Source of the DNA: a filamentous cyanobacterium CCP3
GTDB lineage: Bacteria; Cyanobacteriota; Cyanobacteriia; Phormidesmidales; Phormidesmidaceae
DNA: 45,110 nucleotides
Assembly: GCA_003022385.1 (NCBI GenBank)
Contig: PYGV01000012.1
Span: 1-45,110, forward strand
Reading direction: 5' to 3'
The notes beneath the pieces were generated by a model. It saw nothing but the letters and a program-made list of their open reading frames with translations. It searched no databases and had not been told where the DNA came from. Positions 16,473 through 30,572 of the stretch are shown piece by piece. The position numbers and the translations under genes were made by a program. Every line of letters starts with the position of its first letter. Position 1 is the first letter of the stretch.

Positions 16473-19282
16473 GAATGACCTCCAGTGGGTAGGGAGTTGA
16501 AAGAAGACAGGGGAACTTCAGGATGGGGATTGCGCTCGGCAAACCAGCGCTCTGTAATCACGGAGAGGGGTTCACCGGATTGAATCGAGAGCACCAGTAG
16601 CCGGGCGAATTCTGCCAGGCCGGTGAAGGTATCGGGGGCATGGCGCAGCACTAAGTCTCGGGTCGTCTGCTCATCGGGGTTATTGGCCACGGCGGCCAAC
16701 TGGGCGAAGGCGGGATAGTAGCGGCAGTAGGTATAGAGGCCGTTGTTGTCCAATAACCACTGGCTGTAGATGCCCTCCCGTTTAGGAAAGAAGCTCTCGC
16801 TGGCATTGCGGCTGATGACAGACTTGGGATATTTGAGAATGCGCTCAAAGCTGTCTACCGCCATGGGCTGAATGCGACCAATCAGGCGAGTGGTCAGGTT
16901 TTGAAAGATCTTGGCGCTGGCGGGCGATTTATGGACGGTATCGGGATCTTGAGCCGAGATAATCACCCGAATCCCGGCCTTGGCTCCGTTGGCGCAGAGT
17001 CGGCCAATCAGGGCTCCAATTTCGTCAAACTCAAACAGGATGGGGGCTTCATCGATGAAGAAGATAGACGCTGGGGCTTCTAGGGCTCGCCGCAGGGCAG
17101 CGGCATAGGCAGAAAGGGCAAGCACAGCGGCATCTTCTTCGTTGGATAGATTGCGCAGGGCAAATACCAGCAGTTGAGCATCGGTCGGAAAGCTGGAGGG
17201 AGCCGAGATCGCCCGCCCCACCCGGCTGGAGAGCCAAAACCTGAGCCGTAGATCGATCATGTCCAGAGCCTTCGCGATGTTGCCGCCCACCTGGTTCAGA
17301 TCCAGCTTTTCTGGGGTGCAGAAGTCGAGAAAGTCAGCTAGGGTCGGCATACTGCTCCAGGCCGCTGAGCCTAAGCGACCTTCCATCGCTTCCAGATAGC
17401 GCCGCTGAATCGGGGCATCGGCGAAGAAAGCATTGAGGGCCAGCACTAGAATCGAGCGAATGGTCTGGGTCATCACCGAGCTATTCGCTCCCGAACCCAC
17501 AATCATGGTCAGCAGCGCCGACTCCAGGAATGACTGAAAGTCGTCGAGGCGTTCTTTGCGCTCGTCACCCGGCAGGTGACGCAGGTCAGGCAGCTCGAAC
17601 AGGTTGTTAGACTCGCGGGAGATGTCGAAGTAGGCCCCCCCCACCAGTTGGGTGTAATCGGTGAAGGTCGAGGAGCCATCGGGCTTGGGAAAGTCGAGCG
17701 CGACTACTGGGAAGCGGTGGGCCAGCGCCTGGGTGAGGATGCCAGAGACCAGGACAGATTTCCCGGCTCGGGTGGTGGCAAACAGGCCCAGATTCTGGTG
17801 CTGGTTGAACAAATCCAGATGGATGGGTTGCCCCCCTTCTTCAGCAATCAGCTCAAAGCCACTCCTATCGCAGGGCTGGGTCACCACCAGCGGCATTAGC
17901 CCCGGTGCTTCGCCAGTCAGGTAGAGCTGCCGCCGTCCAAAGGGGGTCGCCATCAGCGCTTCCCAAACAATCGGCAGCGTCTGAAGCCACACTTTCCAGG
18001 CGTAGTCTTGCTCGCGCTCTACCCAGGCCGGGCGGCGAAAGCAGCTTTGGATATAGCGACAAGCTTCATCTAGCTGCTCCAGATCCGGTCGATGCACCAG
18101 AAATACAACAGCCGTGTGAATGGGTAGGGCACCCTCGAAGAGTTCCTCCTGGGCCTCAATCGAGCGCTTCATCTTCAACTCAGCGGCCACATCTACCGAG
18201 TGACTGTCTTCAGCCAAAGTGGCCGTCAGGTTTGACTGCTTCAGCATCCGCTGCACGGTGGTTTTCACCAGGGTTTCGTTGGCCCGCGTCAGCTGGCAGA
18301 AGATTTCGGTATCGGCCACCGTCTCGCGGGAGAGGATCTCCCACAGGTAGCGGAGCTGGGCCGATTCACTGGCCCAACCCCCAGGCTTTTCGAGGAACGT
18401 TAGCGGGGCTGCATACTGGCCCTTGACCTTGACCCAGGTTTTCCCGGCGGTGGGCACCCCGGCTCGCGTCAGCAGTGTGGTGCTGTGAATGTCGGAGTTG
18501 ACCTGCTCGTGTAGGCCATCAGAATCCAGGATGATTAGTTGGGGAATGTTGATGGGGTTACTGGCGTTAAAGCGGTTCCACAGCAGTGCCCACAGATCCG
18601 ATTCGCCAAGAGGTTTGACCGAGAGACCCATCTTGGTTGAGAGCACCTGCTCCCAGAGCAAAAAGCCGTCGGTAAAGGCCTTGGTGATCACCGTTTGCAG
18701 GCGCTGGTTTTTGGCCTGGCGCAGCTCACCTGTGAACGACTTCCACAAGGTTTCGCCTCTGCTGATCACCTTCTCGATGATGTCCTGGGCTCCTTCGGTA
18801 CCGCTCTGGACGGTGTAGGTGACGTACAGCCGCAGGAACTTGGGTTTGCGCAGGCCCTGCTGAGTGAGTTGTTGGACTCGGGCGCGTTCAGCGGTGAGCA
18901 GGAACTTTAGAGCTTGGTTGGAGGCGATCTGGGTGAGTTGGGCTAAGGCCTGTTGGCGATCGCAGTCTGCCGAAAACGACCCCAGATGAATCGTCAGCCG
19001 CTCGCCGTTGGGCAAATCCTTCAGCCCCGATTCCAGCTGGTCAAAGACCGTCTTGACCTGATCGTCGGTCAATGTATTGTGGATGCCCCGGCAGTCGAAG
19101 CCAAACACAAAGCAGAGGTGCTCCCGGTTCTTGCCCTTCGTGAGAACGTAGGCTCCAACCTGCCGCCCCCGCAGTTCAATTCGCAGCATAGCGGCGAGGT
19201 TGAGCGCATCTTCAAAGGGCGTCAACGTGCTGACGAACTGGTTGCCGAGCTTGAGTCGGTGTTTGCCGATGGTCTGTTTCAT
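16469..19282 (-). CDS. virB4: VirB4/TraC-like T4SS ATPase
   Basis: The 937-residue ATPase energises pilus biogenesis and substrate transfer at the inner membrane. Walker A FATTRAGKSVL lies near residue 500 and Walker B SIFFIDEAPILFEFDE near 739. The RecA-like domain includes text such as SAQDPDTVHKSP and LTTRLIGRIQPM. The N-terminal ~480 residues form the variable domain expected of VirB4. ATG 19282 has a TGAGGT ribosome site, although it makes the gene overlap the virB3-like ORF by 71 nt; the next Met at 19189 would remove the overlap. A degenerate copy of residues around ESNNLFELPDLRHLPG occurs at 25755-25838. Confidence 0.92.
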   Translation of the reverse strand: MKQTIGKHRLKLGNQFVSTLTPFEDALNLAAMLRIELRGRQVGAYVLTKGKNREHLCFVFGFDCRGIHNTLTDDQVKTVFDQLESGLKDLPNGERLTIHLGSFSADCDRQQALAQLTQIASNQALKFLLTAERARVQQLTQQGLRKPKFLRLYVTYTVQSGTEGAQDIIEKVISRGETLWKSFTGELRQAKNQRLQTVITKAFTDGFLLWEQVLSTKMGLSVKPLGESDLWALLWNRFNASNPINIPQLIILDSDGLHEQVNSDIHSTTLLTRAGVPTAGKTWVKVKGQYAAPLTFLEKPGGWASESAQLRYLWEILSRETVADTEIFCQLTRANETLVKTTVQRMLKQSNLTATLAEDSHSVDVAAELKMKRSIEAQEELFEGALPIHTAVVFLVHRPDLEQLDEACRYIQSCFRRPAWVEREQDYAWKVWLQTLPIVWEALMATPFGRRQLYLTGEAPGLMPLVVTQPCDRSGFELIAEEGGQPIHLDLFNQHQNLGLFATTRAGKSVLVSGILTQALAHRFPVVALDFPKPDGSSTFTDYTQLVGGAYFDISRESNNLFELPDLRHLPGDERKERLDDFQSFLESALLTMIVGSGANSSVMTQTIRSILVLALNAFFADAPIQRRYLEAMEGRLGSAAWSSMPTLADFLDFCTPEKLDLNQVGGNIAKALDMIDLRLRFWLSSRVGRAISAPSSFPTDAQLLVFALRNLSNEEDAAVLALSAYAAALRRALEAPASIFFIDEAPILFEFDEIGALIGRLCANGAKAGIRVIISAQDPDTVHKSPASAKIFQNLTTRLIGRIQPMAVDSFERILKYPKSVISRNASESFFPKREGIYSQWLLDNNGLYTYCRYYPAFAQLAAVANNPDEQTTRDLVLRHAPDTFTGLAEFARLLVLSIQSGEPLSVITERWFAERNPHPEVPLSSFNSLPTGGHS

Positions 19283-19565
19283 CGTGAATAAACCTCAGAT
19301 ATCGGGCATAGCCGCGACTCCAGGTGGGAGTCGGCACAAATTTTGCGGTGAACTTCCAGCTCTGCCCCCCGGTGAGAATCCACCAGGTAGACATGCCCCA
19401 GGCGGCAATGAATCCAATCGAAATCCAGCTGAGGCTGAACCCTCGGCCTAACAGATAGGAGGCCCCCGTGATGCAGAACCAGGGAATGATCTGGTCGGCT
19501 GGAATGGGGCCTAACCGGGGTTGCGCTCCCAGGATGGTGTTAACGGGACGAAATTGAGATGCCAT
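19212..19565 (-). CDS. virB3: VirB3/TraL-like small membrane protein
   Basis: The 117-residue protein has two close membrane segments (about 27-40 and 44-65, WFCITGASYLLGRGF and ISIGFIAAWGMSTWWIL) and a hydrophilic C-terminus, the plan of VirB3/TraL. It lies between the pilin-like gene and virB4, its normal place. The last ~24 residues (DETDHRQTPTQARQPV) are encoded in the overlap with virB4, so the tail may be a by-product of a lost stop. Assignment is by architecture and position. Confidence 0.6.
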   Translation of the reverse strand: MASQFRPVNTILGAQPRLGPIPADQIIPWFCITGASYLLGRGFSLSWISIGFIAAWGMSTWWILTGGQSWKFTAKFVPTPTWSRGYARYLRFIHDETDHRQTPTQARQPVRQHVDAL

Positions 19566-19634
19566 AAGCCGCTACTGGTGCTGAAAGGACGGTGTAGAGC
19601 TGCACCCTCGATCTGAATGGCCGCACAGCGACAA

Positions 19635-20186
19635 CTAGCCGGTGATCAGCGTCGTTAGAACATCGCCAGCGGTGACGGCAATGATGATAATTAGCGGTGT
19701 GCGGGCAATAGTTTGCCAATCCTCGTCGTTGCGAGCGCTGTTGATCACCCGCACCAGCGAGATGCCGACATAGAGCAGAAACAGGCCCCGCAGCACGTTG
19801 AAGACCAGGGGAATGGCGTCGCCCGCAGCGGTGCCAAAGTTGGTAGTCATCCAGGTTTCAGCCCCACCAAAGAATTGGGCTTGGGCGGGATAGGCCAGCA
19901 GGGTGATCAGCCAGAGCAGCCCTAAACCCAGGAGCCGCCCAGCCTTTCGCCTAAAGCCCTGGGCCTTAGATGCCCGTCTGGATAGGGAACGGGAGGGTAT
20001 TATGTCCCACCTCCAGGCAAGGCCTGTCAACCCTGCCATTACCAGCACCACGAGTAAGGCGGGGCCATGGATGAGGACATCTAGAGCGAGACATAGGAAC
20101 GCTACGGCGAGTAGCGGCAGGTCTGGAAGCGGATTCATTCGACCTACCAGTCGTTCCACCAACGGAAAAATGTAGAGAGTTTTCAT
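19635..20186 (-). CDS. virB2: VirB2-like pilin precursor with long N-terminal extension
   Basis: The last ~85 residues match a VirB2-type pilin: a hydrophobic leader LGLGLLWLITLLAYPAQAQF with a likely cut after AQA near 103, then two membrane helices separated by a short polar loop (SARNDEDWQTIAR). About 85 residues precede this, with two further hydrophobic segments and a basic loop (SLSRRASKAQGFRRKAGR). That is longer than usual. An internal start at Met17 (20138) or later is possible. This is the first gene of the minus-strand transfer operon. Confidence 0.65.
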   Translation of the reverse strand: MKTLYIFPLVERLVGRMNPLPDLPLLAVAFLCLALDVLIHGPALLVVLVMAGLTGLAWRWDIIPSRSLSRRASKAQGFRRKAGRLLGLGLLWLITLLAYPAQAQFFGGAETWMTTNFGTAAGDAIPLVFNVLRGLFLLYVGISLVRVINSARNDEDWQTIARTPLIIIIAVTAGDVLTTLITG

Positions 20187-20203
20187 GGCTCAAATGAATT
20201 GAG

Positions 20204-20240
20204 TCTGACTGATGATTGAAGTCTCCTGAAATCAGTCAGA
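20204..20240. repeat. Perfect 10-bp inverted repeat upstream of the T4SS operon
   Basis: TCTGACTGAT (20204-20213) is perfectly repeated in inverse as ATCAGTCAGA (20231-20240) with 17 bases between. It begins 18 bases upstream of the virB2-like start, so it lies in the leader or promoter of the transfer operon. It could be a repressor operator or an mRNA hairpin. Confidence 0.5.
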
Positions 20241-20729
20241 TGACATGACTCGCGTGCTCACCAATGAGTGACCTATGTCACTTGAATTGCGTAATTTTTC
20301 GATCAATATAGCAATATTTTCTGGTGGTGGGGAAATGTCAATCTAAATTGTGGACTTAGACTCAGATAGCCCATAGTCACGCCTAAAGCCTATACAAGAT
20401 GGTAGATATCGTGGCTGATTCTGTAATCTTGCGTCATGTTAATCAAGCTATTGAGCAATCTCTACTGATACTTAAGCAAGAAGATATTTTTTATACTTAG
20501 GTTATACATAATTCCCATTTGCCGGAATTTCTGCCGTCAATTATTAACGCAATTTACGGCGCACAAGAACTCTATGGTTACAGTCGAAATTGATCTATAA
20601 AAAATTTTTGAAAGCGACGCAACGGCATGTTATTAGGTTCCCTTTTGCCACAGATGTTTTCAACTCAATAGTTAAGGTTTAACTGACAAAATGACACAAC
20701 AACTGATTTACAGACACAAAACAAGCTTA

Positions 20730-20759
20730 TTGACGTCAATACGTCTTGATGTCTCTAAA
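20730..20759 (+). promoter_or_regulatory. Candidate parA promoter with embedded palindromic operator
   Basis: A -35-like TTGACG (20730-20735) and a weak -10 TCTAAA (20754-20759) are 18 bases apart. Between and over them lies an imperfect palindrome: GACGTCAA (20732-20739), six bases, TTGATGTC (20746-20753), one mismatch. ParA systems with a ribbon-helix-helix partner usually repress their own promoter through such a site. The assignment is inference from position and symmetry. Confidence 0.4.
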
Positions 20760-20851
20760 TTCACCATCTTAAATGCGGCAGGGGTTTGGGTAAGGCGAGC
20801 CTTGTAGAGGTGATCAGGAGCTGGGCGTTATACGAGGAGTGAAACACAGCT

Positions 20852-21628
20852 ATGAAGACGGTAAGTTGTTTGTCGCTCTCTGGGGGGCAAGGGAAAACGT
20901 CGGTCTCGCTGCTGCTGGGACGGCTCCTGGCGAACCGGGGCCAGAAGGTGCTGATGGTGGATGCTGACCCGCAAGCGAATCTCACCTTTTATCTAGGCCA
21001 TGATGTTCAGGCAAATGAACCCACCCTGCTGGAGGTGCTGAAGGGCCAGGTGGAAACAGCCGATGGGATCTATCCGCTGGCAGCGGCCAATCTGTTTTTG
21101 ATCCCAGCTGATGAGGGGCTGCATAAGGCCCAGGAATACTTGGCCACCATCGGGATGGGAGCCATGGCTTTGCGCCATGCCCTGGAAGCAGTGGGGGATC
21201 TGTTTGATGTTTGCATCATTGACTCGCCGCCCCAGCGCACCCAGATTTGCTTATCGGTGGTGGGGGCCTCGGAATGGGTGCTTATTCCAGCGGAGGCCTC
21301 GACCAAGGGAGTAAATTCGCTGCTGTGTAGCCTGGAACTGCTGGAGGAATTGGGGCGCATACGGGCGTTTAAGGGCCAGGTGCTGGGGGTGCTGCCGTTT
21401 CGCGACAAATGGTTTGGTCGATCTCAGGCGACGGATAGTCGAGAGGCCATAGCGGCTATGCAGCAGGTGGCAGGCTCAATCCCGGTGCTGCCGTCAATTG
21501 TGGAGAGTGAGCGCTATAAGCAAGCGATTCGGCAGGGACAGCGGCTGTCAGAGATTGGGTACGGGGAGTTGGAATATCCGTTATGCAGGGTGATTGAGGC
21601 GTTAGAGCAGGGGCAAGGGAATGGCTGA
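20852..21628 (+). CDS. parA: ParA-family partition ATPase
   Basis: The 258-residue protein is a ParA/Soj type ATPase that positions plasmid copies on the nucleoid. The Walker A-like text is LSGGQGKTS at about 9-17, followed by VDADPQANLTFYLG and a Walker B-type CIIDSPPQ near 124-131. Unusually, the signature lysine of the deviant Walker A (KGGxGKT) appears to be Ser. The size fits a small plasmid ParA without a DNA-binding N-terminal extension. A GAGGAG ribosome site lies at 20833-20838, somewhat far (13 nt) from ATG 20852. It overlaps the next gene by 8 nt. Confidence 0.9.
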   Translation: MKTVSCLSLSGGQGKTSVSLLLGRLLANRGQKVLMVDADPQANLTFYLGHDVQANEPTLLEVLKGQVETADGIYPLAAANLFLIPADEGLHKAQEYLATIGMGAMALRHALEAVGDLFDVCIIDSPPQRTQICLSVVGASEWVLIPAEASTKGVNSLLCSLELLEELGRIRAFKGQVLGVLPFRDKWFGRSQATDSREAIAAMQQVAGSIPVLPSIVESERYKQAIRQGQRLSEIGYGELEYPLCRVIEALEQGQGNG

Positions 21629-22064
21629 GGATGCGCTGGAACGGTTGATGCAGCGGCAGCGCCCGAGTGTACCGCCCCGTGCCGATGGGTTGGGGGCAGA
21701 GTTACCTGTGAAGTCTCCTCAACAGGTGACAGTTGAGGGCAATGGGTCGGGATATAGTGACTCTAGCGAGTCTACGAGTGTTGACGTCAGTATGTCTGTT
21801 AGCCAAGATGATGAGGCGGAGTTACCGCAGCTAGTGCGGACAACGACCCGGTTGGAGGAAGAGATTGATAAGGCCCTGCGCCACCTCTGTATGGATGAGA
21901 AGATCACCAAAGAGGTGTGGTTTGAGGCGGCGTACCTCTACCTGGCGGAGCACCCAAAGGCGATGCAGGCGGTGAATGGGGTGGCAAAGGAGCGCTACCA
22001 GCGCCGGAAGCGGGCAGCGGATTTGAGGAAGCTGGAGACAATGCAGAAGCGATTGAGGGGTTAG
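21621..22064 (+). CDS. ParA partner, probable ribbon-helix-helix centromere-binding protein
   Basis: The 147-residue protein overlaps parA by 8 nt, so it is the expected partition partner. Its N-terminal ~75 residues are disordered, rich in Ser, Gln, Asp and Glu. The C-terminal part (about 73-125) reads VRTTTRLEEEIDKALRHLC, a beta-strand then helices that fit a ribbon-helix-helix DNA-binding unit, followed by a basic tail (KERYQRRKRAADLRKL). No ParB nuclease-like or HTH domain is present. The TTGACGTCA motif of the parA promoter recurs inside this gene at 21781. Confidence 0.6.
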   Translation: MAEDALERLMQRQRPSVPPRADGLGAELPVKSPQQVTVEGNGSGYSDSSESTSVDVSMSVSQDDEAELPQLVRTTTRLEEEIDKALRHLCMDEKITKEVWFEAAYLYLAEHPKAMQAVNGVAKERYQRRKRAADLRKLETMQKRLRG

Positions 22065-22215
22065 ACGATTGCGTCGGAGCTTGTTAAGCGAACGAATTGG
22101 GGCCAACCAATCGTGGTGACTTTAGAGTTTGGGGTTTTAATTACCCCAGGGCAGGGGGAGGTGATGAGCGTTCTAATGCGCTGGTGACAGGCAATTTAGG
22201 CAGCATTGAATCTCG

Positions 22216-22252
22216 TTGTTAGGTATGTTCGTTCCAACAACATGCCTAACAA
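22216..22252. repeat. 14-bp inverted repeat (hairpin) at the edge of the cargo island
   Basis: TTGTTAGGTATGTT (22216-22229) pairs with AACATGCCTAACAA (22239-22252) with one mismatch and a 9-base loop. No T-run follows, so it is not a plain terminator. It could be a boundary left by insertion or a binding site. Confidence 0.5.
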
Positions 22253-22288
22253 AGCATAGATACTCAGTCTCACTAGAACGATTATCAG

Positions 22289-22310
22289 TCAAGCCATTGA
22301 AATGGCTTGA
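22289..22310. promoter_or_regulatory. Perfect 10-bp-arm palindrome upstream of the GHKL/methyltransferase pair
   Basis: TCAAGCCATT (22289-22298), two bases, AATGGCTTGA (22301-22310): a perfect inverted repeat. It is 107 bases before ATG 22417, the distance expected for an operator or activator site. Restriction-modification operons often use such sites, but no controller gene is seen next to this one. Confidence 0.45.
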
Positions 22311-22416
22311 ACCTGTAAAGTTGTCAAAAAGCCTGCAATTCTTGGATTTTGGAAAGCTAAGAGCTTGTAGAATATTGGGTATTTTATTACAGTAAAAGCT
22401 CTAAAGACTAATCCTT

Positions 22417-24543
22417 ATGGCTCAGCAACAGCAAGATAGTGTTAACGAACCAGCGAAATATACTATGACGATTTCGCGCCTGACAGTAGATAAGTTAGGC
22501 GTGAAACTTTACGATAGAGTCTCTGCGGTGATTGCTGAGCTAGTATCCAATAGCTATGACGCAGACGCAACCGAAGTTGAAATCACTGCACCAATGGGAG
22601 AATTTCTTGCGACAAAACCTAACAATCAGTTAATAGATAAAGGCTATACAATTGAGATCTATGATAACGGAATCGGGATGACACCGGAGGAAGTAAATAA
22701 CTTTTATCTCTGCGTTGGAGCAGATAGACGAACTGACAGCAAAAGAGGAGATGAATCCAGAGAATTTAAGCGAAAAGTTATGGGAAGAAAGGGGGTAGGG
22801 AAATTAGCGCCTTTCGGAATTTGTGAAAGAATAGAAATCTTAACCTCTGGCGGAGAAATGGTGAAGGGTGAGGATGAGAATGGACAAGAAGTTCAAGGAT
22901 ATTTGACTGCTCACCTAATTCTTGATCGAAGTGAAATCTTGCAAGAGACCGATTCCAATTACGAGCCAGAAGTTGGTGAACTAGATGGGACTGTAAGCTT
23001 AAAAACTGGAACATTAATAAAATTGAGTAAATTTTATAAAAGAGAAGTTCCTGACATAAACATACTCGAAAGACAACTGTCTCAAAGATTCGGAATTTCT
23101 TCACAAGACTGGAAAATTATACTTTTTGATTCAACTAAAACTGAAGACGATGCCGATTACTGTAGAGAGGTAGGAGCGTTTGATATCATTACAATGCCAG
23201 ATACAAAGATAACGTTTAGTGAAGATAGAAATGCTTATAGGTTTGATGGAAATATTTTTTCAGATCTTAAGGCAGGATTTGAGCTTAACGGAGAGTTTTA
23301 TCCCATTACTGGTTGGGCAGCATATTCTAAGGATCCATACAAAGATGATTTAATGGCAGGTATCCGCATATATTGCCGTGGGAAAATCGCAGCACAAACC
23401 ACTGTATTTAATAGAGGCGCAAGTTTCTCAGGTGAGTATAGTATTCGTTCTTATTTGGTAGGTGAGATTCATGCAGATTGGCTAGATGAACAAGAAGAAG
23501 ATCTAATTCAAACTGACCGAAGAGATATTCTTTGGTCTCATGAGTTAGGTCAAGAATTTGAGCAGTGGGGGCTGGCATTACTCAAAAAAGTTGGCAATAT
23601 GTCTCGTAACCCAGTCAAGAAAAAGACATGGGAATTATTTAAGGAGAATTCAAACATTGAAGAGAGAATTCAGCAAGCATTTCCCAGAGAAGAGCAAAAT
23701 AAAATACGTGAAGAAGCAATGGATTTTGCTCAACTAATTGGCCAAAAAATGCGTGAGGATGAAGTTTCTGATCCTGCTAGGACAGAAGAAATTGTTCAAC
23801 TTAGTTTAACCTTCGGCCCTCATGTAACTTTGGATCGCAAGCTACGTGAAGCTGCGGATGATACTGAGGGAACCCCTATCGCTGTCGTCGCAGAAATCTT
23901 AAAAATTGCTCGAATTGCTGAGCTTTCATCTTTTGGTCGAATTGCTGATGACCGGGTCAGAGTTATTAATAGAGTAGAGACTCTAAAGGATGATAAGCAA
24001 ACGCTTGAAGCCGCCTTTCAAGATCTTATTGAGCAAGCTCCTTGGCTTATAGATCCTCAGTGGTCTCCAATTACGCAGAATCAATCTTTTACAACATTAA
24101 AACAAGAGTTCCAGAAGTATTATGTAGAAAATACAGGCGAGGATATTCAACTTAAGGATTTTACAGATCCTAACAAAAGGGCAGACTTTGTGCTTTCAAA
24201 TGAAGAGAACGTTATTCAAATCATAGAAATAAAACGCCCAAAACATAAATTTGAAAATCCTGAAATGGAGAGATTGAATAAATATGTAGAGCAGATGACA
24301 AGCTTTTTGGCTGAAGAAAGTCATAAGGACTTTACTAAGGTATTTAAGGGCTTTCACGTTACACTTGTGTGTGATGATGAGAAGTTGACAGGTGTTTATA
24401 AGACAGCATTTGAAGGCTTGAGAAAAGATGGGACTTTAACATATATTAGCTGGACATCCTTCCTCAACAGAACTAGAAAGATGCATCAGGATTTCTTAAA
24501 TGAAGCTGAAAGACAAAAGAGATATGCAGCACAGGGTTCGTAG
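22417..24543 (+). CDS. GHKL (HSP90/MORC-like) ATPase fused to PD-(D/E)XK-type nuclease domain
   Basis: The 708-residue protein has an N-terminal GHKL ATPase: motif ELVSNSYDADA at 41-51 (E41, N45, D48), DNGIGM at 83-88 and glycine motif GRKGVGK at 123-129. This is the MutL/MORC/HSP90 ATP site. A transducer-like middle and a long helical region follow. The C-terminus has RADF (D590) then IEIKRP (E604, K606), the D...ExK spacing of restriction-type nucleases. The next gene is a cytosine-5 methyltransferase overlapping by 44 nt, so the pair probably acts as an unusual restriction or defence system. Base composition is clearly AT-rich against neighbours, and I saw no HIP1 octamer in it, both signs of recent transfer. 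An alternative is a nucleotide-dependent structural ATPase without nuclease activity. Confidence 0.85.
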   Translation: MAQQQQDSVNEPAKYTMTISRLTVDKLGVKLYDRVSAVIAELVSNSYDADATEVEITAPMGEFLATKPNNQLIDKGYTIEIYDNGIGMTPEEVNNFYLCVGADRRTDSKRGDESREFKRKVMGRKGVGKLAPFGICERIEILTSGGEMVKGEDENGQEVQGYLTAHLILDRSEILQETDSNYEPEVGELDGTVSLKTGTLIKLSKFYKREVPDINILERQLSQRFGISSQDWKIILFDSTKTEDDADYCREVGAFDIITMPDTKITFSEDRNAYRFDGNIFSDLKAGFELNGEFYPITGWAAYSKDPYKDDLMAGIRIYCRGKIAAQTTVFNRGASFSGEYSIRSYLVGEIHADWLDEQEEDLIQTDRRDILWSHELGQEFEQWGLALLKKVGNMSRNPVKKKTWELFKENSNIEERIQQAFPREEQNKIREEAMDFAQLIGQKMREDEVSDPARTEEIVQLSLTFGPHVTLDRKLREAADDTEGTPIAVVAEILKIARIAELSSFGRIADDRVRVINRVETLKDDKQTLEAAFQDLIEQAPWLIDPQWSPITQNQSFTTLKQEFQKYYVENTGEDIQLKDFTDPNKRADFVLSNEENVIQIIEIKRPKHKFENPEMERLNKYVEQMTSFLAEESHKDFTKVFKGFHVTLVCDDEKLTGVYKTAFEGLRKDGTLTYISWTSFLNRTRKMHQDFLNEAERQKRYAAQGS

Positions 24544-25627
24544 CCTACCTCAGCCAACAGCAATAGATATTTTCGCTGGGGGCGGCGGATTAACAGTAGG
24601 ATTAAAAAAAGCAGGTTTTAGGGTAGTCGCTGCTGTTGAGATTGAGCCGCATGCATTCTCAACCTATAAAGCCAATCACCCAGAAGTACGTGCATTTAAA
24701 CAAGATGTACGTACAGTTAAAGGTAAAAGTCTGTTGAAATTTTCACCTACTGGAAAAGTTGATCTTCTTTCTGGATGTCCTCCATGTCAGGGCTTTTCCG
24801 CTTTAACTTCCAAGAAAAAAGTTGATGCTGATCCACGGAACCAACTTGTTCTAGAAATGAGTCGCCTCGTAGAAGAAGTCAAGCCTAGGATTGTTATGAT
24901 GGAAAACGTCCCAGGTTTGCCAAAGAAAGGTAAAGTGCTGTTTGATGAACTGCTACAAAAACTAGATTCTTTAGGCTATGTAATTAATTATGATGTCCTT
25001 CAAGTTGCAGATTATGGAATCCCTCAAAGTCGTCAAAGACTTGTCCTCTTAGCTGGAAAAGGGTTTTCAGTAGAGTTTCCAGAAAAGACTCATGCTAAAG
25101 CGGGAGAAGGCGATCTTCTGCCCTGGAAAACTTTGCGCGAAACAATTGGTTCAATGCCAGAGCCAGTGGTTTTATCTGACATCAAGGATAATAGCAGCCC
25201 ACAACAGTACAACTGGCATGTTGTTCGTTCCATATCTCCAGAAACTTTGGCAATACTTAAGGCAGCTCAACCTGGCGAAAGTAGATTAAAACTTCCAATG
25301 GAATTACGACCTCCATGTCATAAAAATAGAAAGGATGGATTTAATAATGTGTACGGTCGTTTGTCTTGGGAGCAAGTCTCATCAACAATAACCGGCGGCT
25401 GTACAACTGTTAGCAAAGGTCGATTTGGCCATCCAGAGAGAGATAGAGCAATTTCTGTTCGAGAAGCCGCATTGATACAGACATTTCCGAAAGACTATAT
25501 TTTTGATACACCATTCATCGACCATGTCTGTGAAATAATCGGAAATGCGCTGCCATGTGATTTCGCTGAAGTTCTTGCTCATCAGTGCTTTAAAGCGTTA
25601 TCTCAGATAGATGAGAACCTGTCATAA
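24500..25627 (+). CDS. DNA cytosine-5 methyltransferase
   Basis: The 375-residue protein has the C5-methyltransferase motifs in order: I IDIFAGGGGLTVGL near 22-35, IV SGCPPCQGFS with catalytic C96, VI MMENVPG near 133-139, VIII QSRQRLVLLAG, and C-terminal motifs IX-X including REAALIQTFP and IGNALP. The length is normal. It modifies cytosine at carbon 5 in a target set by the variable region before motif IX (roughly 240-310), which cannot be predicted. ATG 24500 overlaps the GHKL gene by 44 nt; ATG 24524 is an alternative and still precedes motif I. It shares the AT-rich composition of the GHKL gene. Confidence 0.93.
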   Translation: MKLKDKRDMQHRVRSLPQPTAIDIFAGGGGLTVGLKKAGFRVVAAVEIEPHAFSTYKANHPEVRAFKQDVRTVKGKSLLKFSPTGKVDLLSGCPPCQGFSALTSKKKVDADPRNQLVLEMSRLVEEVKPRIVMMENVPGLPKKGKVLFDELLQKLDSLGYVINYDVLQVADYGIPQSRQRLVLLAGKGFSVEFPEKTHAKAGEGDLLPWKTLRETIGSMPEPVVLSDIKDNSSPQQYNWHVVRSISPETLAILKAAQPGESRLKLPMELRPPCHKNRKDGFNNVYGRLSWEQVSSTITGGCTTVSKGRFGHPERDRAISVREAALIQTFPKDYIFDTPFIDHVCEIIGNALPCDFAEVLAHQCFKALSQIDENLS

Positions 25628-25754
25628 GTAGGTAGACCTAAGTAATCAGCATACCGATCATGACACAGCAAGGCTTCTAGCAATTCAGGGCTACGTTTAA
25701 TTAGCCTCACCTACTTAACTTGTTTAGACAGTGTTGCGATTAAGACAACCAGAC

Positions 25755-25838
25755 TAGACGACCCTTGAACCAATCTACCGGCAAGTAACGCAAGTCTAGC
25801 TGCTCGAACAGGTTGTTTGACTCGTGGGGGATCTCAAC
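25755..25838 (-). pseudogene. Relic of a virB4 gene
   Basis: The minus-strand translation reads EIPHESNNLFEQLDLRYLPV, matching DISRESNNLFELPDLRHLPG of the intact virB4 near 17570-17630. DNA agreement is also plain: 25799-25835 matches 17590-17626 at 32 of 37 positions, and similarity continues for some 25 bases on one side. No other part of virB4 is visible here. The fragment is cut off within the gap between the methyltransferase and the antitoxin. It marks a past recombination between related conjugative elements. Confidence 0.7.
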
Positions 25839-25896
25839 GTGATCATTTCCTATCGTTAGAATTGAAGTCAAAAGTAGTTGCTTTCTTTCATCTTTC

Positions 25897-26163
25897 ATGC
25901 AAATTGTCCTTCCTCCTGAACTAGAACAACTCATCCAACGCCAGCTCGCTGCTGGCAAATACCAATCTGCCCTAGAGGTCATCACAGCAGGCATACACCT
26001 ACTCGACCAGCAAGACGATATCTATCAAGGGCGACTCCCCGAACTCCAGCAAGACGCCCAGATCGGCTGGGAAGCAGCCCAGCGCGGCGAACTCGTTAAA
26101 GGCCCCACCGCCATGGCCCAGATTCGAGAAAACCTGCGGTCTCGCCACGCCTCCGCTGAATAA
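25897..26163 (+). CDS. ParD-family antitoxin
   Basis: The 88-residue protein starts QIVLPPELEQLIQRQLAAGKY, the ribbon-helix-helix strand and helix of ParD-type antitoxins, followed by SALEVITAGIHLLDQQD. Its C-terminal half, acidic with some basic residues, would wrap the toxin. The stop overlaps the toxin ATG by 1 base, which is typical of the pair. Antitoxins of this type repress their own promoter. It would help keep the element in the population. Confidence 0.85.
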   Translation: MQIVLPPELEQLIQRQLAAGKYQSALEVITAGIHLLDQQDDIYQGRLPELQQDAQIGWEAAQRGELVKGPTAMAQIRENLRSRHASAE

Positions 26164-26471
26164 TGGCACCTCAGTTTTACCTAACCCAACCTGCCATTCA
26201 AGACATCGAGGCCATTGCAGACTACATCGCCGGTCAAACAGGGCTCCAGCAGGCCGAGCGTTTCCTTTCAAAGCTCGATGCCAAATTCGCCAGAATCACC
26301 CAATTCCCTAATCTGGGGCGGCCACGCGACGAAATCCTCCCTGAACTGCGCAGCCTCTCAATGGAGAGCTACCTCATTCTCTACACCGCAACCGAATCTA
26401 AAGTAGACATCTTGCGGGTCGTCAGTGGTTACCGCGACCTGACGAGCTTGTTCACAGACGACGAAGAGTAA
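26163..26471 (+). CDS. ParE/RelE-family toxin
   Basis: The 102-residue protein shows the family pattern QPAIQDIEAIADYIAGQTG, a central FPNLGRPRDEI and near the end ILRVVSGYRDL. ParE toxins poison DNA gyrase, while RelE members cut mRNA; the LRVVSGYRDL ending and partner fit ParE better. The gene is intact and couples with the antitoxin by a 1-base overlap. It ends 10 bases before the first origin repeat. Confidence 0.85.
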   Translation: MAPQFYLTQPAIQDIEAIADYIAGQTGLQQAERFLSKLDAKFARITQFPNLGRPRDEILPELRSLSMESYLILYTATESKVDILRVVSGYRDLTSLFTDDEE

Positions 26472-26480
26472 TCGATTTTT

Positions 26481-26703
26481 GGTAGACACGGTAGACGCCC
26501 GGTAGACACTCTGTCTACCGGGCAAAAACCTTTATCCACAGGCTATTCAGCCATTTCGGTAGACAGTAGACACTTTCCTCGCAATTCCCCATTGGCAAAC
26601 CCTGTCTACTTGTCTACCGTTTCGCTATAACCCTTACCCATCAGCACTCTCAGCGGTAGACAGGGTGTCTACCGTTTCCTCAAATCTGTCTACCGCGTCT
26701 ACC
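26481..26703. repeat. GGTAGAC iteron cluster with DnaA box: candidate vegetative origin
   Basis: Twelve copies of GGTAGAC or its inverse occur in 223 bases (10 exact, 2 with one mismatch). Forward starts are 26481, 26490, 26501, 26558, 26565 and 26655. Inverse starts are 26604, 26612, 26513, 26667, 26688 and 26697. Two pairs make perfect hairpins: 11-bp arms 26497-26507/26513-26523 and 9-bp arms 26654-26662/26666-26674. A consensus DnaA box TTATCCACA lies at 26532-26540. The last four repeats are within the coding end of the primase gene. Repeats plus a DnaA box next to a replication gene are the classical design of an iteron origin. Confidence 0.65.
26532..26540 (+). promoter_or_regulatory. 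Consensus DnaA box
   Basis: TTATCCACA matches the DnaA-binding consensus TTATNCACA exactly and sits in the AT-richer gap between iterons 4 and 5. Confidence 0.6.
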
Positions 26704-29030
26704 GTTGCCCGCCACCGCAGCCGATTCCCCATCCCCTGGGTTTCCCCATACCCCATCGCCTCCAGCTCTAAAAAATGAGCCCGAATCACCTCCACCCCCG
26801 CCTTCCGTAAACTGCGCTCATAATTCCGCACATCCTTCGCCCGCAGCCAGCCCCGCACCCGCGATAGCTGAATCAGCTTCGTATAGACCGGCTCCAGCGC
26901 TCCATCCACCGTATTCCCGTCCGCGTAGAGTAGCTTCACCTGGCCAATGAACCAGCGCCCCAGCTTAATTGCCGCCTGCATCTGGCCCGTATCCACCGCC
27001 TGGGTCGGCAAATGCCCCTCCACCGCCGCATTGAGGCAGTGCAGAATCAGCGCCAGCCGCCCCGTGTAGCCCTGCATCTTGGAATACACCGCCTGCAACC
27101 CTGGGTGGGTCTCCGTCACCCGCAACTGATCCAACTGGTCATACCAATCCGCAAACAATGCCTTGGCCTCAGGGCTGAGCCGATAGCACTGAGCCGTCAA
27201 CCCCTCCAGCTGCTGATAAAGGCCATAGAGCCGCTCCGATATGTCATGGCGCACCGTCCGCCGAGGAAACGGCGCAGGCTTCAGCGGCAGCAGACACCAC
27301 AAAAACCGCGCCCACTGGCCACTGGCATCCGAGCAATCCCCCATCATCTCCCGCAGAATATCGGGCTGAATCGTCCCCGTCAGGCTCAGGCTGGTGCGCG
27401 GCAAACTGATGCGCAAACCGCTGGCCCGATCCACCTTTAGCCCCGAGCCATCAAAGGCCGTCAGCAGCGACTCCTTATCGTTACCCCGGCCATTGCGGTA
27501 CTGGTTCTGCCCCTTGAACAGACCCGCCAGCTCATCCGGCGTCACCAAAATGCCCCGCTCCGGCTGTTGGGCCTGGATGCGGGCGATCGCCTCCCGTGTC
27601 GCATCCGAGGTGTGATACTCCCGTGGCATCGGTTTTCTGGGTCGAATGCCCCTATCCTCCGCTCGGGTCTGCTCCCAATCCCGTAGATCAACTTCATACT
27701 CTGAGGCGGCATACTCATACTCCTGATCCGCCTCCGCCTGGAGTAACGAGAGCGGCCCCAAAATCTGTCGCTGAATCGGGCTCTTCTTGCTACCTGAGGG
27801 GGCTACCAGTCCTGTAAACACAATTGGCGGCACCGAGAACCCCATCCCCGTATCAATCTCCAGCTCCGTACCCACCCGCAGCAATGACGCCGCCACCGGC
27901 AGCAGCGTCACCAGCATCGCCGCTGGCGTCGCTCCAATCCAGGCAGCAATTTGCTCTAAGGGTTCTGCCAGGTCGGCGTGAAGATACTCCCTCAGACACA
28001 GCTGGTAATCGCCAATTTTGAGCAGCTGGTGAATCTCGGCCCGGCGATCATCCCGTTCCTCGGTTTGCTCCAGCTCCGCCTGCACCAGGGTAACCAGGTT
28101 ACCGATATCCCTAGCCGATAGCCCCGTCTCCTGGTGCCATTGAACCACCTGCGCCGCCAGGGCTAGTTCGGTGGGGCTGATGCCCAGGTAGGTGCGAATC
28201 TGGTCTTGTAAGGCCTGCACCGACAGTCGCTCGGGGCCTTGAGTAGGGCTGGCCTCCAGCTGCCGCCGGTCTTGCACCGCCGCTCGAATCTGCTCCGCTG
28301 TGGCCCCGTCATGAATCCAATCCGCCACATCCAGCCCGCCATGCTTCGGCAGGTTATGCCAGCGCAGGCTATCCGGGTAGGGGTAGCACCACTGCGCCGA
28401 GGGGAAGTCCTGGGCGACTTCCTCCATATGGGCAATGCCGACCTGGTCGCGATCTGGACACAGCACGAGTTGGGCCGATTGCAAATCCTGACGGTAATCA
28501 CCATAGCTGCGATACTTCTTCGAGCCCCCCAGGGTCGTGGTAGCGGGAATGCCGATCGCCCACAGAGCATCAGCGCAGCCTTCCCCCTCCACCATCCAGA
28601 TGGGTTGACCGATGGCGATCGCATTCTGGACATCCCGGTAGCGGTAGATCGGCACCTGGGCTCTAATCTCAGGGGTCAGCCCCTTGACCCACTGCTGCCC
28701 ATTCCAGTGGTACTGGACAAAAAACTTTGCACCGTTGCCCCGATCTACCCGAGTCACCTTCACCAGGGGCTGCCCAGTTCGGCTGGGATAAAAGTAATCC
28801 TGCCGCTGCTGGGGGCGAACTGGCTTCTCGGGTGCGGCGGTGGCTGCAAAGTATTGCCCCCACATGCCATCGGCTGTTGCGCCCCGATAAACGAAGCCGT
28901 CTACCGCCCCATCCTGGTCTACGTGGGTGTGACAGAACACCACCTCCTCATTCCAGCGGCAGTCTTGGTCTTTGATGCGTCCACAAATCGGACAGGGGAG
29001 CGATCGCCCTGAGTAAGTGTACTGTGCCAT
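26634..29030 (-). CDS. Primase/TOPRIM-DUF3987-type replication protein
   Basis: The 798-residue protein begins with a zinc-binding motif (C13, C16, C24, C33; CPICGRIKDQDC). A TOPRIM-like region follows near 150-215, with WMVEGEGCADALWAIG, TTTLGGSKKYR and LVLCPDRDQVG. The C-terminal half is a DUF3987-like ATPase/helicase-associated region with a Walker A-like APSGSKKSP, LVTPDELAGLF and SLTGTIQPDIL. Such proteins in plasmids prime or unwind DNA at the origin. The C-terminal codons contain origin repeats (encoding VDAVD and TVDTLS). The start is ATG 29030 with AGGAG at 29037-29041, which is locked in a small hairpin. The DUF name is from memory and the exact family should be checked. Confidence 0.8.
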   Translation of the reverse strand: MAQYTYSGRSLPCPICGRIKDQDCRWNEEVVFCHTHVDQDGAVDGFVYRGATADGMWGQYFAATAAPEKPVRPQQRQDYFYPSRTGQPLVKVTRVDRGNGAKFFVQYHWNGQQWVKGLTPEIRAQVPIYRYRDVQNAIAIGQPIWMVEGEGCADALWAIGIPATTTLGGSKKYRSYGDYRQDLQSAQLVLCPDRDQVGIAHMEEVAQDFPSAQWCYPYPDSLRWHNLPKHGGLDVADWIHDGATAEQIRAAVQDRRQLEASPTQGPERLSVQALQDQIRTYLGISPTELALAAQVVQWHQETGLSARDIGNLVTLVQAELEQTEERDDRRAEIHQLLKIGDYQLCLREYLHADLAEPLEQIAAWIGATPAAMLVTLLPVAASLLRVGTELEIDTGMGFSVPPIVFTGLVAPSGSKKSPIQRQILGPLSLLQAEADQEYEYAASEYEVDLRDWEQTRAEDRGIRPRKPMPREYHTSDATREAIARIQAQQPERGILVTPDELAGLFKGQNQYRNGRGNDKESLLTAFDGSGLKVDRASGLRISLPRTSLSLTGTIQPDILREMMGDCSDASGQWARFLWCLLPLKPAPFPRRTVRHDISERLYGLYQQLEGLTAQCYRLSPEAKALFADWYDQLDQLRVTETHPGLQAVYSKMQGYTGRLALILHCLNAAVEGHLPTQAVDTGQMQAAIKLGRWFIGQVKLLYADGNTVDGALEPVYTKLIQLSRVRGWLRAKDVRNYERSLRKAGVEVIRAHFLELEAMGYGETQGMGNRLRWRATVDAVDRFEETVDTLSTAESADG

Positions 29031-29035
29031 GGTTA

Positions 29036-29053
29036 GCTCCTGGTTTTAGGAGC
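29036..29053 (-). promoter_or_regulatory. Hairpin hiding the primase ribosome-binding site
   Basis: In the primase mRNA, GCTCCT (29053-29048) and AGGAGC (29041-29036) are perfect complements with 6 bases between. The second arm contains the AGGAG ribosome site 5 bases before the ATG. Translation could thus be restrained until the hairpin opens. Confidence 0.5.
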
Positions 29054-29102
29054 CAGGCCACCACAATCAACCGGCTTTTTTAACCCTTAGCGGTGCTCAG
29101 TG

Positions 29103-29130
29103 TGGACATTTTCAATGTCTTTGCTATAGT
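29103..29130 (+). promoter_or_regulatory. Plus-strand promoter with palindromic operator
   Basis: TGGACA (29103-29108), 16 bases, TATAGT (29125-29130) form a good sigma-70-type promoter pointing away from the primase gene. The palindrome GACATT-TTC-AATGTC (29105-29119) lies over the -35 box, so a dimeric repressor could control it. Confidence 0.5.
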
Positions 29131-29136
29131 GAGAAG

Positions 29137-29268
29137 ACACCACTTCTAGCAGCAGATTAATGCCCTGGCTGGTTCGGCAAAAACCACATCAGGATGTTGA
29201 TTGGCCTGGCTTAGAAAACAAACGAAAAGATTCAGCACCCTCGCCAATCAATGGCTGGGGTGTTTTTT
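29137..29268 (+). ncRNA. Candidate small RNA antisense to the primase leader
   Basis: A promoter at 29103-29130 and an intrinsic terminator at 29236-29268 define a transcript of about 130 bases with no ORF. It runs opposite to the leader expected for the primase mRNA, like copy-number antisense RNAs of plasmids. It contains TTGATTGGC (29197-29205), which is perfectly complementary to GCCAATCAA (29243-29251), part of the terminator stem and loop. Two alternative folds, one breaking the terminator, are therefore possible. This is a prediction from sequence only. Confidence 0.4.
29236..29268 (+). terminator. Intrinsic terminator
   Basis: CACCCTCGCCA (29236-29246), loop ATCAA, TGGCTGGGGTG (29252-29262) form an 11-position stem with one mismatch and one G-T pair, followed by six T. 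It fits a plus-strand transcript. Confidence 0.7.
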
Positions 29269-29344
29269 CATAGGTTTTAGAGCTGAGATTTTAAGCCAGA
29301 TTCTTAATCACAGACTTGATTGAGCTTGAAGCCCTCGACTTGGT

Positions 29345-29626
29345 TCAACGATCTTTTAATCGATGTCCAGATCGTTTATGAATCTTGCGCTGGTTGCTCA
29401 ACAAACTGGCCTGGTAGATCTCAATGGCCCGTTGGTGAGCTACTGGGTCATGGCGGTTGTGGAGCCAGTCCTTGATCAGCTCTAAGTTGTAGCGAATGCA
29501 GCGACTATTCACTCGAACCCAGTGAACACCCTCGATCAACAGCCCCTGCACTCGATAGCGTCTCAAGGTGGTACCGCTGAGCTTCAGCGACTGGGTAGCT
29601 TCCTGCTTGCTGACAAATTGAACCAT
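29345..29626 (-). CDS. Excisionase-like (Xis) small DNA-binding protein
   Basis: The 93-residue protein reads VSKQEATQSLKLSGTTLRRYR and then GLLIEGVHWVRVNSRCIRYNLELIKDWL, the winged-helix pattern of excisionase/MerR-like proteins (helix-turn-helix, wing, then Trp at the end). The C-terminal third is basic (SNQRKIHKRSGHRLKDR). It has a good ribosome site GAGGAAGGA about 8 bases before ATG 29626. It lies in the same operon as the Ner-like gene and overlaps it by 122 nt in another frame. A role in directing excision by the integrase, or in controlling replication of the primase region, is likely. Confidence 0.65.
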   Translation of the reverse strand: MVQFVSKQEATQSLKLSGTTLRRYRVQGLLIEGVHWVRVNSRCIRYNLELIKDWLHNRHDPVAHQRAIEIYQASLLSNQRKIHKRSGHRLKDR

Positions 29627-29834
29627 GGTTCATCCTTCCTCGCTTATACCGTTGAGGCCAAATCTCATGGGGAGGCAGGCCAAGTTTGCCCGCCACGACC
29701 TGCTCGATACGCCGAGATCGCTGTCGAGTCAAGGCATGGGAGACTGCCGAGGTGCCAATATTCAGTTCTTTTGCGATGCTGGTTAAAGTCCAACCCTGCT
29801 TGCGTAGAGCTGCTTTAATGTCTTCTACATGCAT
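29505..29834 (-). CDS. Ner/Nlp-like helix-turn-helix protein
   Basis: The first ~65 residues match the Ner/Nlp family of phage Mu: DIKAALRKQGWTLTSIAKEL, NIGTSAVSHAL and GKLGLPPHEIWPQRY. These are small HTH regulators. The last ~40 residues overlap the Xis-like gene in another frame and look unselected. Its promoter TTGACA/TAACTT overlaps the promoter of the opposite-facing S24 repressor, giving a phage-like switch. It may repress the S24 repressor gene in the early stage of transfer. Confidence 0.75.
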   Translation of the reverse strand: MHVEDIKAALRKQGWTLTSIAKELNIGTSAVSHALTRQRSRRIEQVVAGKLGLPPHEIWPQRYKRGRMNHGSICQQAGSYPVAEAQRYHLETLSSAGAVDRGCSLGSSE

Positions 29835-29850
29835 AGAATTGTCTTAGCTC

Positions 29851-29895
29851 CATCAATATATCGATGAAGTTAGCAATAAATAAATTGCATGTCAA
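29851..29895 (-). promoter_or_regulatory. Promoter of the ner-xis operon with palindromic operator
   Basis: Read on the minus strand: TTGACA (29895-29890), 17 bases, TAACTT (29872-29867). A near-palindrome CATCAATATATCGATG (29851-29866, two mismatched positions) follows the -10 box and is probably an operator. The -35 box overlaps the extended -10 of the opposite promoter. Confidence 0.6.
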
Positions 29896-29896
29896 G

Positions 29897-29905
29897 TGTT
29901 ATAAT
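29897..29905 (+). promoter_or_regulatory. Extended -10 promoter for the S24 repressor
   Basis: TGTTATAAT is an extended -10 (TGnTATAAT) 25 bases before ATG 29931. No -35 match is seen, which extended -10 promoters tolerate. Direct repeats AAATTGCAT (29882-29890) and AATTTGCAT (29903-29911), 21 bases apart, could be repressor sites. Confidence 0.5.
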
Positions 29906-29930
29906 TTGCATCTGCGATTAATGTAACTCT

Positions 29931-30572
29931 ATGACTAATCCATTACCTGATGAGGCGCAGGCGGATGCCAAGGAAGTTGACCAGTTTCCAGTCCGCTTGA
30001 AGCAGGCGGTTGGCGACAAGAGCATTCGAGGCTTTGCCCGAGCCTGCGGCTTTTCTGACACCGTGCTCCGCCAATATCTCAATGGCCAGAGCGAACCCAC
30101 CCGACCAGCGCTGCTCGCTATAGCCCGCACAGCACAGGTCAGCGTCGAGTGGCTGGCGACCGGCCAGCCTGTAGCGGGGGCTAAGGATTCGTCTAAAGCG
30201 TCAGCCGAAGATTATGTTTACAAGGATCCGCTGGCCTTTGAGACGGGCTGGCTCCGAGCAGAGTTCCCCAGTGCCTCTGAAAATTTGCTGCTCACCCAAG
30301 TGGTCGATGAAAGCATGGAACCGACCCTTCACCAGGGGGATTTAGCATTGGTGGACACCAACGATCGTGACTTAGAAACCGTGAGTCACGGTATCTACCT
30401 GATCAAGCTCAATGATCGACTGTTGATCAAACGCTTGCAGTACATAGCCGATAACACGCTGAAAGTGCTCAGTGACCATCCAGCCTACGAAGCCTTCTCA
30501 ATTCAAATATCTGGGTCACCCAGTGGTCTAAGTCTGATGGGGAAAGTGGTTTGGTTCGGGCGCAAACTATGA
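29931..30572 (+). CDS. CI/LexA-like repressor with S24 peptidase domain
   Basis: The 213-residue protein has an N-terminal helix-turn-helix (about 29-78: SIRGFARACGFSDTVLRQYL, then EWLATG) and a C-terminal S24 domain. The catalytic serine is S128 in DESMEPT and the lysine is K167 in LLIKRLQ. An Ala-Gly pair at 82-83 is a possible self-cleavage site. Such repressors keep an integrated element silent and are cut when RecA is activated by DNA damage. It is transcribed divergently from the Ner-like gene, with overlapping promoters. The leader is short and no ribosome site is seen. Confidence 0.87.
   Translation: MTNPLPDEAQADAKEVDQFPVRLKQAVGDKSIRGFARACGFSDTVLRQYLNGQSEPTRPALLAIARTAQVSVEWLATGQPVAGAKDSSKASAEDYVYKDPLAFETGWLRAEFPSASENLLLTQVVDESMEPTLHQGDLALVDTNDRDLETVSHGIYLIKLNDRLLIKRLQYIADNTLKVLSDHPAYEAFSIQISGSPSGLSLMGKVVWFGRKL

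Follow-up and report, generated by a model that had tools for sequence, protein, structure and literature searches.

Two overlapping genes of the filamentous cyanobacterium CCP3, here named R and M, very probably constitute a restriction-modification system that is Type II-like in its gene content and is carried as exchangeable defence cargo on a conjugative element of this probably Nodosilinea-like cyanobacterium. The genes are located in a 45,110 nt stretch of DNA (contig PYGV01000012.1, positions 1 to 45,110 of the forward strand), referred to as the window in the current work. R specifies a GHKL ATPase fused to a C-terminal nuclease, and M specifies a C5-cytosine DNA methyltransferase. Both genes are intact, their domains are identified, both active sites are conserved, M is linked to R, both genes are under purifying selection, and the pair is located in a cargo slot.

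The ATPase and nuclease domains of R

An alignment of R hits was used to scan viral contigs for relatives of R; 150 were found, the best 80 of which were the loci examined. The survey set comprises 100 R proteins from viral, plasmid, phage and genome loci, grouped in 63 clusters at 75% identity, and residue counts refer to 62 cluster representatives, the fragment L048 being left out. A first-pass annotation, made from the letters of the window alone, had described two open reading frames (ORFs) with an overlap of 44 nt, and had assigned to R an ATP site (E41, N45, D48, DNGIGM at 83-88 and GRKGVGK at 123-129) and nuclease residues D590, E604 and K606. Both ORFs are intact (708 and 375 amino acids; Table 1) and each of these residues was found as placed; being near-invariant over the 62 representatives, they do not represent chance matches. 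The 44 nt overlap is counted from the first ATG of M, and amounts to 20 nt from the in-frame ATG at 24524 (codon 9).

The Pfam profile HATPase_c_3 (GHKL) matches residues 36-144 of R (4.8e-17), and an AlphaFold model of the whole protein, based on a 48-sequence alignment, has a mean predicted local distance difference test score (pLDDT) of 88.9. Structural comparison of this model by VIA-align retrieved for residues 18-400 as best match Morc3 (5ix2_B; Z 23.4, root-mean-square deviation (rmsd) 3.1, 292 aligned residues), with further matches to MORC4, MORC2, Hsp90 and GyrB. The motif GhXhhpXXRhl, which defines MORC proper and is located in the S5 module, was not found in R, which has GIRIYCRGKIA from residue 315 with K replacing the R of the motif (the stretch was matched by eye). 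E41, N45 and D48 are retained in all 59 cluster representatives with letters at these positions, G123, G126, G128 and K129 in all 62, and the ATP site is kept in every clade of the R family. This invariance, which extends even to the clade named after restriction enzymes, speaks for ATP binding being of importance in vivo, as judged from residue conservation, and ATP hydrolysis probably matters as well.

A BLAST-type search of whole R against solved structures retrieved no nuclease; most of the matches were Hsp90/MutL-type ATPases, and a few were weak and to unrelated chains. Since the ATPase domain fills the match list of the whole protein, the nuclease becomes visible only by means of a family profile or a model of the domain alone. 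Its signature is E531-D590-E604-x-K606, in which E531 is E in 60/60 and D590 is D in 61/61 cluster representatives with letters at these positions, while E604 is E in 59 and K606 is K in 57 of the 62. The five representatives without K606 are L160 and four members of one clade (L112, L113, L118 and L120). In that clade EFM takes the place of E-x-K in 4/4 representatives, so that the catalytic lysine has been lost or moved. Thus, the nuclease site is kept in all clades but one, plus single exceptions.

When the domain profile was compared to the sequences of solved structures, matches were obtained to NucS (2.3e-4), SduA (5.4e-4) and EndoMS (1.5e-3), the ExK of the family being in register with ELKR of NucS/EndoMS and EIKT of SduA. 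The domain modelled alone (residues 524-708; pLDDT 91.3) has as best solved fold matches EndoMS (Z 9.8, rmsd 3.1, 110 aligned residues) and NucS (Z 9.2, rmsd 3.0, 107 aligned residues), followed by AF1548, a protein of unknown function (Z 8.3), and by the less distinct matches BspD6I, FokI and BstEII (Z 7.3-7.8). SduA structures score below NucS and EndoMS, at Z 6.4-6.8 (8ti9, Z 6.8, rmsd 5.1; 8ps4, Z 6.6, rmsd 5.5), a level shared with RNA polymerase subunit E at Z 6.0-6.6; from about Z 6.6 downwards, SduA is interspersed with RNA polymerase subunit E and cap-snatching endonucleases of viruses. Foldseek placed NucS, EndoMS and E. coli SduA in its top ranks. The Pfam profile SduA_C matches residues 530-612 of R weakly (2.1e-4; 21.9 bits, the Pfam gathering score being 27) and was detected in 14/48 family members at E <= 0.001. 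Profile search, Foldseek and the domain model all return PD-(D/E)XK nucleases, in agreement with the C-terminal nuclease fold that had been proposed from the letters alone.

Linkage to the methyltransferase and relation to known systems

A C5 methyltransferase gene was found within 400 nt of R in 77 of the 80 viral-contig loci (L121 and L127 being weak) and in 57 of the 63 clusters, so that the proposed linkage of homologues to a methyltransferase holds for most of the family. Among plasmids, 13 of the 17 records with matches were examined, and in 12 of these a C5-methyltransferase-like ORF adjoins the R gene, the exception being Rubrobacter marinus; in one of the 12, that of Neisseria gonorrhoeae, R and M are both in pieces. 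In a 60-row R tree (fragments L048, L056 and L058 left out), the window groups with L002, L100, L101, L103, L108, L109 and L110 (support 100/100), and in this window clade R precedes M on one strand in 8/8 cluster representatives, with overlaps of 8-56 nt as calculated from longest-ORF starts. The identities of R and M co-vary (Mantel r 0.71; 0/2000 permutations as high; 53 pairs); this test and the M tree cover 53 of the 63 clusters, after removal of fragments and of rows lacking a strong linked methyltransferase. The pair resembles Type II restriction-modification systems in that an endonuclease gene with a catalytic site adjoins a methyltransferase gene, and linkage and co-variation suggest that M is the cognate enzyme.

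This linkage bears on the possibility that R is a modification-dependent (Type IV-like) enzyme which cuts foreign methylated DNA and is unrelated in function to the neighbouring methyltransferase. NTPase-coupled nucleases of such a sort have been described (GrwAB), yet a constitutive C5 methyltransferase encoded by the same operon would create self targets, and the linkage to a C5 methyltransferase at 77/80 loci also speaks against it; this possibility is therefore considered highly improbable.

Among the closest known systems are the restriction enzymes BbrUII and HgiDII with their M.HgiDII/M.BbrUII-type C5 methyltransferases, the enzymes being represented by the NCBIfam family profile NF050001, to positions 1-649 (of 659) of which residues 15-701 (of 708) of R can be aligned (2.2e-75). 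The domain order is the same over the full length, a C5 methyltransferase is adjacent in nearly all cases, and the ATPase and nuclease residues are identical, with one D for E604 among 25. PADLOC gave REase_II as best match for R (1.3e-29) and MTase_II for M (2.4e-92). Together with the nuclease fold, these matches bear out the first-pass annotation in its description of a restriction-modification-like pair with fused ATPase and nuclease. Of 58 records tested, 26 exceed the NF050001 cut-off, at 618-830 bits, whereas the window clade scores 235-260 bits; the over-cut-off sequences form a clade of 25 rows (support 100/100) that is separate from the window clade. The gene order also differs: of the 25 BbrUII-type clusters, 24 have a linked methyltransferase, in the order M-R in 13 and convergent in 11, as opposed to R followed by M in the window clade. 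From its sequence, R shares the wider family with BbrUII and HgiDII but belongs to a clade apart, and is not a BbrUII/HgiDII equivalog.

Several observations weigh against the assignment of the pair as a restriction-modification system. R scores 254.5 bits, less than half of the curated NF050001 cut-off of 550, and its clade lies outside the over-cut-off clade, so that R cannot simply be assumed to share the biochemistry of BbrUII/HgiDII. Five of the 63 clusters are without a C5 methyltransferase in the DNA examined, and one more has such a gene at 958 nt, for which reason some relatives of R may act alone. In the portion of the literature that was searched, no report of this pair or of its activity was found, nor an ATP study of HgiDII or BbrUII. 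Finally, the related GHKL-nuclease VcSduA (Shedu type I-D) is described as defending its host as a single gene (PMC12137116). This protein, compared here by its description, has the same domain order as R, with an N-terminal GHKL ATPase and a C-terminal Shedu-like PD-(D/E)xK nuclease; it was shown in 2025 to block phage, and both the ATPase glutamate and the nuclease lysine are reported to be needed, whereas a methyltransferase is not (PMC12137116). R could then similarly be a nuclease which senses phage infection or DNA structure by means of its GHKL domain, M being a passenger or only indirectly protective. The SduA_C matches and the presence of SduA among the solved-structure matches are in line with this explanation, but the SduA_C score of R is under the gathering score, and the constant order and overlap of R and M in the window clade are hard to square with a dispensable M. 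We therefore regard a Shedu-like function as unlikely, and retain that of a restriction-modification pair.

The fused architecture had been taken by the first-pass annotation as a new minimal form, a claim that was not sustained. A family named paraMORC3, with GHKL and S5 modules, a C-terminal restriction endonuclease-fold domain with E-D-ExK, and an occurrence in restriction contexts or sometimes alone, was described in 2008 (PMC2292703). R shares with it the intact GHKL motifs, the S5 module, the E-D-ExK fold and the restriction-modification context; paraMORC3 was compared by this description, and is said there to be prevalent in proteobacteria and Bacteroidetes, with extensive lateral mobility suggested (PMC2292703), while the window member is cyanobacterial. 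The sole sequence link to paraMORC3 is a phage protein annotated as ParaMORC3 by its depositors, which adjoins a Dcm gene and falls in the related BbrUII-type clade. Because paraMORC3, VcSduA and this phage record precede it, and NF050001 covers the whole protein, the fused ATPase-nuclease form is not new. The MORC operons with SF2 helicase, methylase and Vsr genes (PMC2292703) also combine a GHKL ATPase with a cytosine methylase in a restriction context, but differ from the pair, the slot of which holds neither a helicase nor a Vsr gene, the nuclease of which is fused, and which lacks the MORC-defining motif.

The reported absence of Vsr and helicase genes from the vicinity holds for the slot, and three Vsr query proteins revealed no Vsr-like ORF of 60 amino acids or more in the window; a helicase gene is nevertheless present at one end of the window (Table 1). 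Vsr-like genes were found at 20 of 179 loci (3 of these 20 having supplied the queries) and look like optional companions of the R family. Since they are located beside 3/8 window-clade representatives (L100, L101 and L109) in addition to the fused nuclease, the absence of Vsr does not represent a simplification of the restriction machinery.

The target-recognition region of M, taken as residues 186-324, is 99% identical to that of the near-copy L001, 50-73% identical to those of L002 and six viral-contig representatives of its own clade, and only 33-36% identical to those of four BbrUII-type partners. GTCGAC, reported as the site of M.HgiDII (PMC5867850), is therefore not to be assumed for M. 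Palindrome counts across 8901-32084 were rejected as a guide to the site, GTCGAC occurring once (3.6 expected) in a region from which 20 of the 64 6-bp palindromes are wholly absent. The genome that carries the pair (G000) encodes a second C5 methyltransferase on another contig (C140, 1456-2361).

A variable cargo slot on a conjugative element

The pair occupies a slot (Table 1) in which, among non-overlapping ORFs of at least 100 amino acids, only R and M are present. The G+C content of the pair is 0.397, as compared to 0.58 on the left (8718-22064) and 0.54 on the right (25897-31817). Sibling elements were recognized by means of the DUF3987 gene of the element core. On the left, their homology to the window extends to 22056-22064 in L088, L089 and L090 and to 22163 in L091; on the right, it starts again at 25897 in L088, L089 and L090, 25898 in L094, 25891 in L092 and 25789 in L091. 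Five sibling elements carry other genes in the slot, four of which match known anti-phage systems: L089 and L088 carry Avs2, which is split in L088, L090 carries LmuA/LmuB/LmuC of Lamassu, and L092, for which only the right border was seen, carries an HmaC/DUF499 protein. The fifth, L091, carries a TPR-CHAT protein. The pair is accordingly interpreted as defence cargo because of its slot neighbours as well as its own domains.

The region 8718-32086 has 27 mismatch positions relative to a genome of the same genus (G025), as opposed to 78-94% identity in flanking 500-base steps; this near-identity beside divergent flanks implies that the tract moved recently. In a contig (L055) of another genome, G022, the pair is 98-99% identical in 500-base steps while the flanking element is 87-94% identical, and therefore the pair also moves as a unit. 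These identity patterns, the slot borders and the G+C contrast together uphold the first-pass description of transferred AT-rich cargo. Relative to the L001 copy (Nodosilinea sp. LEGE 07298), R has 24 synonymous and 7 non-synonymous codon differences, and M has 8 and 1; the ratios of non-synonymous to synonymous substitution rates (about 0.07 for R and about 0.04 for M) are low, and therefore both genes are under purifying selection.

The distribution of R is sporadic. A near-identical gene is present in 3 of 57 genomes searched, its own included (G000, G022 and G025), and a relative with 29% identity in a fourth (G002); some R match was obtained in 28 of the 57, but most matches are weak and limited to some 115 ATPase-domain residues; in their length and range these resemble Hsp90/MutL, and they were dropped. 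NF050001 was detected at 1e-20 in 15 of 386 genomes of the cyanobacterial phylum, none of which reaches the cut-off. The match extends over more than 370 profile positions in five of the 15 (that of the window, G184, G086, in which there is one stop, G318 and G214) and over about 215 or fewer in the other 10; most of the 15 match only in the ATPase part.

Location and distribution also bear on a role as a MutL/NucS-like repair or mismatch-processing pair that is tied to cytosine methylation and does not serve defence. Such a role would fit the mismatch endonucleases NucS and EndoMS being the best fold matches of the nuclease domain, and a repair function has been suggested for some family members (PMC2292703). 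However, the other slot occupants are mostly defence systems, near-identical copies are confined to three of the 57 genomes searched, and separate Vsr-like repair genes stand beside some members, which makes a repair pair extremely improbable as compared to a restriction-modification system.

Further features of the element are compiled in Table 1, for which 19 ORFs were scanned with Pfam, out of the 36 non-overlapping ones of at least 100 amino acids in the window. A second copy of the tRNA-Gly end was not found in the window, which holds one 11-base chance match, or in 60 kb of G025, and the element therefore extends on the left beyond the DNA examined. Contigs C2 and C4 of G025 contain six DUF3987-gene matches, four of them partial, representing multiple or decaying element copies in one genome. 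A 55-bp piece of a VirB4-like gene (17569-17623) is repeated at 25778-25832 with 84% identity, just inside the right slot border, and may be a trace of the route of cargo insertion; L091 likewise has an ORF matching a VirB4-like protein near this border. In L088 (2036-8330) the Avs2-like slot gene is cut in two by a DUF4277/DDE transposase gene. The TPR-CHAT protein of L091 (5856-8210; 784 amino acids) is located in the slot near a 265-amino-acid ORF (9036-9833, minus strand), the two being a candidate defence pair.

Table 1 Features of the window relevant to the R/M pair and its element.
Feature	Position	Strand	Basis or remark
R gene: 708-aa GHKL ATPase, S5-like transducer, helical arm, C-terminal PD-(D/E)XK nuclease	22417-24543	+	
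R residues 18-400: MORC/Hsp90/MutL-like GHKL ATPase and S5 module	22468-23616	+	structural comparison of model, residue conservation
R residues 401-523: mostly long helices linking ATPase with nuclease	23617-23985	+	DSSP on model
R residues 524-708: PD-(D/E)XK nuclease domain (E531, D590, E604, K606, Y623)	23986-24540	+	profile matches and model
M gene: 375-aa C5-cytosine DNA methyltransferase	24500-25627	+	PF00145, 7.6e-62
Variable cargo slot	22065-25896		borders: stop of gene downstream of ParA, start of ParD
ParA-type ATPase, left flank of slot	20852-21628	+	PF13614, 4.8e-32
Conserved gene downstream of ParA, left slot border	21621-22064	+	comparison with sibling elements
ParD/ParE toxin-antitoxin pair, right slot border	25897-26471	+	PF03693, PF05016
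DUF3987 protein of element core, marker for sibling elements	26634-29030	-	PF13148, 7.2e-53
Tyrosine integrase of element, adjoining tRNA-Gly (32012-32083)	30627-31817	-	PF00589, PF12167
Helicase	1-5685		sole helicase found; >16 kb from pair, near coupling-protein gene
Coupling protein	7659-9389		
TrbI	12376-13851		

Probable partner exchange and a possible mode of action

The R and M lineages of the family do not coincide throughout. This was examined in R and M test trees of 30 chosen rows. Two groups, named only after trees had been inspected, are concerned: group C (L132, L135, L138, L140 and L148) and group B (L044, L122, L139 and L141). The M of the window is 0.49-0.52 identical to the methyltransferases of group C, close to its identity of 0.53 with that of L108, the outermost member of its own clade, and in the recognition region three of the group C enzymes share 47-51% identity with M. 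For R, on the other hand, identity drops from 0.53 (window versus L108) to 0.23-0.25 (window versus group C). The M trees unite the window clade and group C (support 100/99, and 98/96 in the test tree), while the R tree, which carries a long-branch warning, joins group C to group B (100/100). Monophyly of the window clade plus group C is rejected by the R data in the approximately unbiased (AU) test (p-AU 2.2e-5). The methyltransferases of group B are distant, and a clade of groups C and B is not rejected by the M data at 0.05 (p-AU 0.07). One M lineage (the window clade and five others) is thus associated with two R lineages that are about 24% identical, one of which is also associated with a second, distant M lineage. 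An exchange of R under a kept methyltransferase is the probable explanation on phylogenetic grounds, a burst of R divergence being a possible alternative.

As to the mode of action, we infer a dimer clamp by analogy with MORC, MutL and Hsp90 relatives, along with ATP dependence, DNA cutting, a recognition sequence and protection by M. M would methylate a cytosine within the recognition sequence of the system on resident DNA, by which self DNA would be protected. R would act as a paraMORC3-type enzyme in which, on ATP binding, two protomers enclose DNA with their GHKL/S5 modules in the manner of MORC, MutL and Hsp90 dimers, and this closure would position or license the C-terminal NucS/Shedu-like PD-(D/E)XK domains. 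The two nuclease domains of the dimer could then cut DNA that is unmethylated at the site, for example phage or plasmid DNA entering the cell. Partner exchange, if real, raises the more far-reaching, and in our assessment rather unlikely, idea that R proteins are interchangeable ATP-driven DNA clamps, for which the choice of site is not fixed as in ordinary Type II enzymes: R would read the methylation state of topologically trapped DNA, with specificity being supplied or shared by M.

If true, this latter idea would constitute a mechanism that bridges Type II restriction, Shedu nucleases and MORC clamps. Because a family named after classical restriction enzymes retains a MORC-type fold together with an ATP site that is invariant, it could serve for the study of a MORC-like machine in a small bacterial system of two genes. 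Restriction enzymes, the mismatch nucleases NucS/EndoMS and the Shedu defence family are connected by this architecture. The cyanobacterial conjugative element, with its sharply bounded slot in which whole defence systems are exchanged, provides a ready place to seek new ones.

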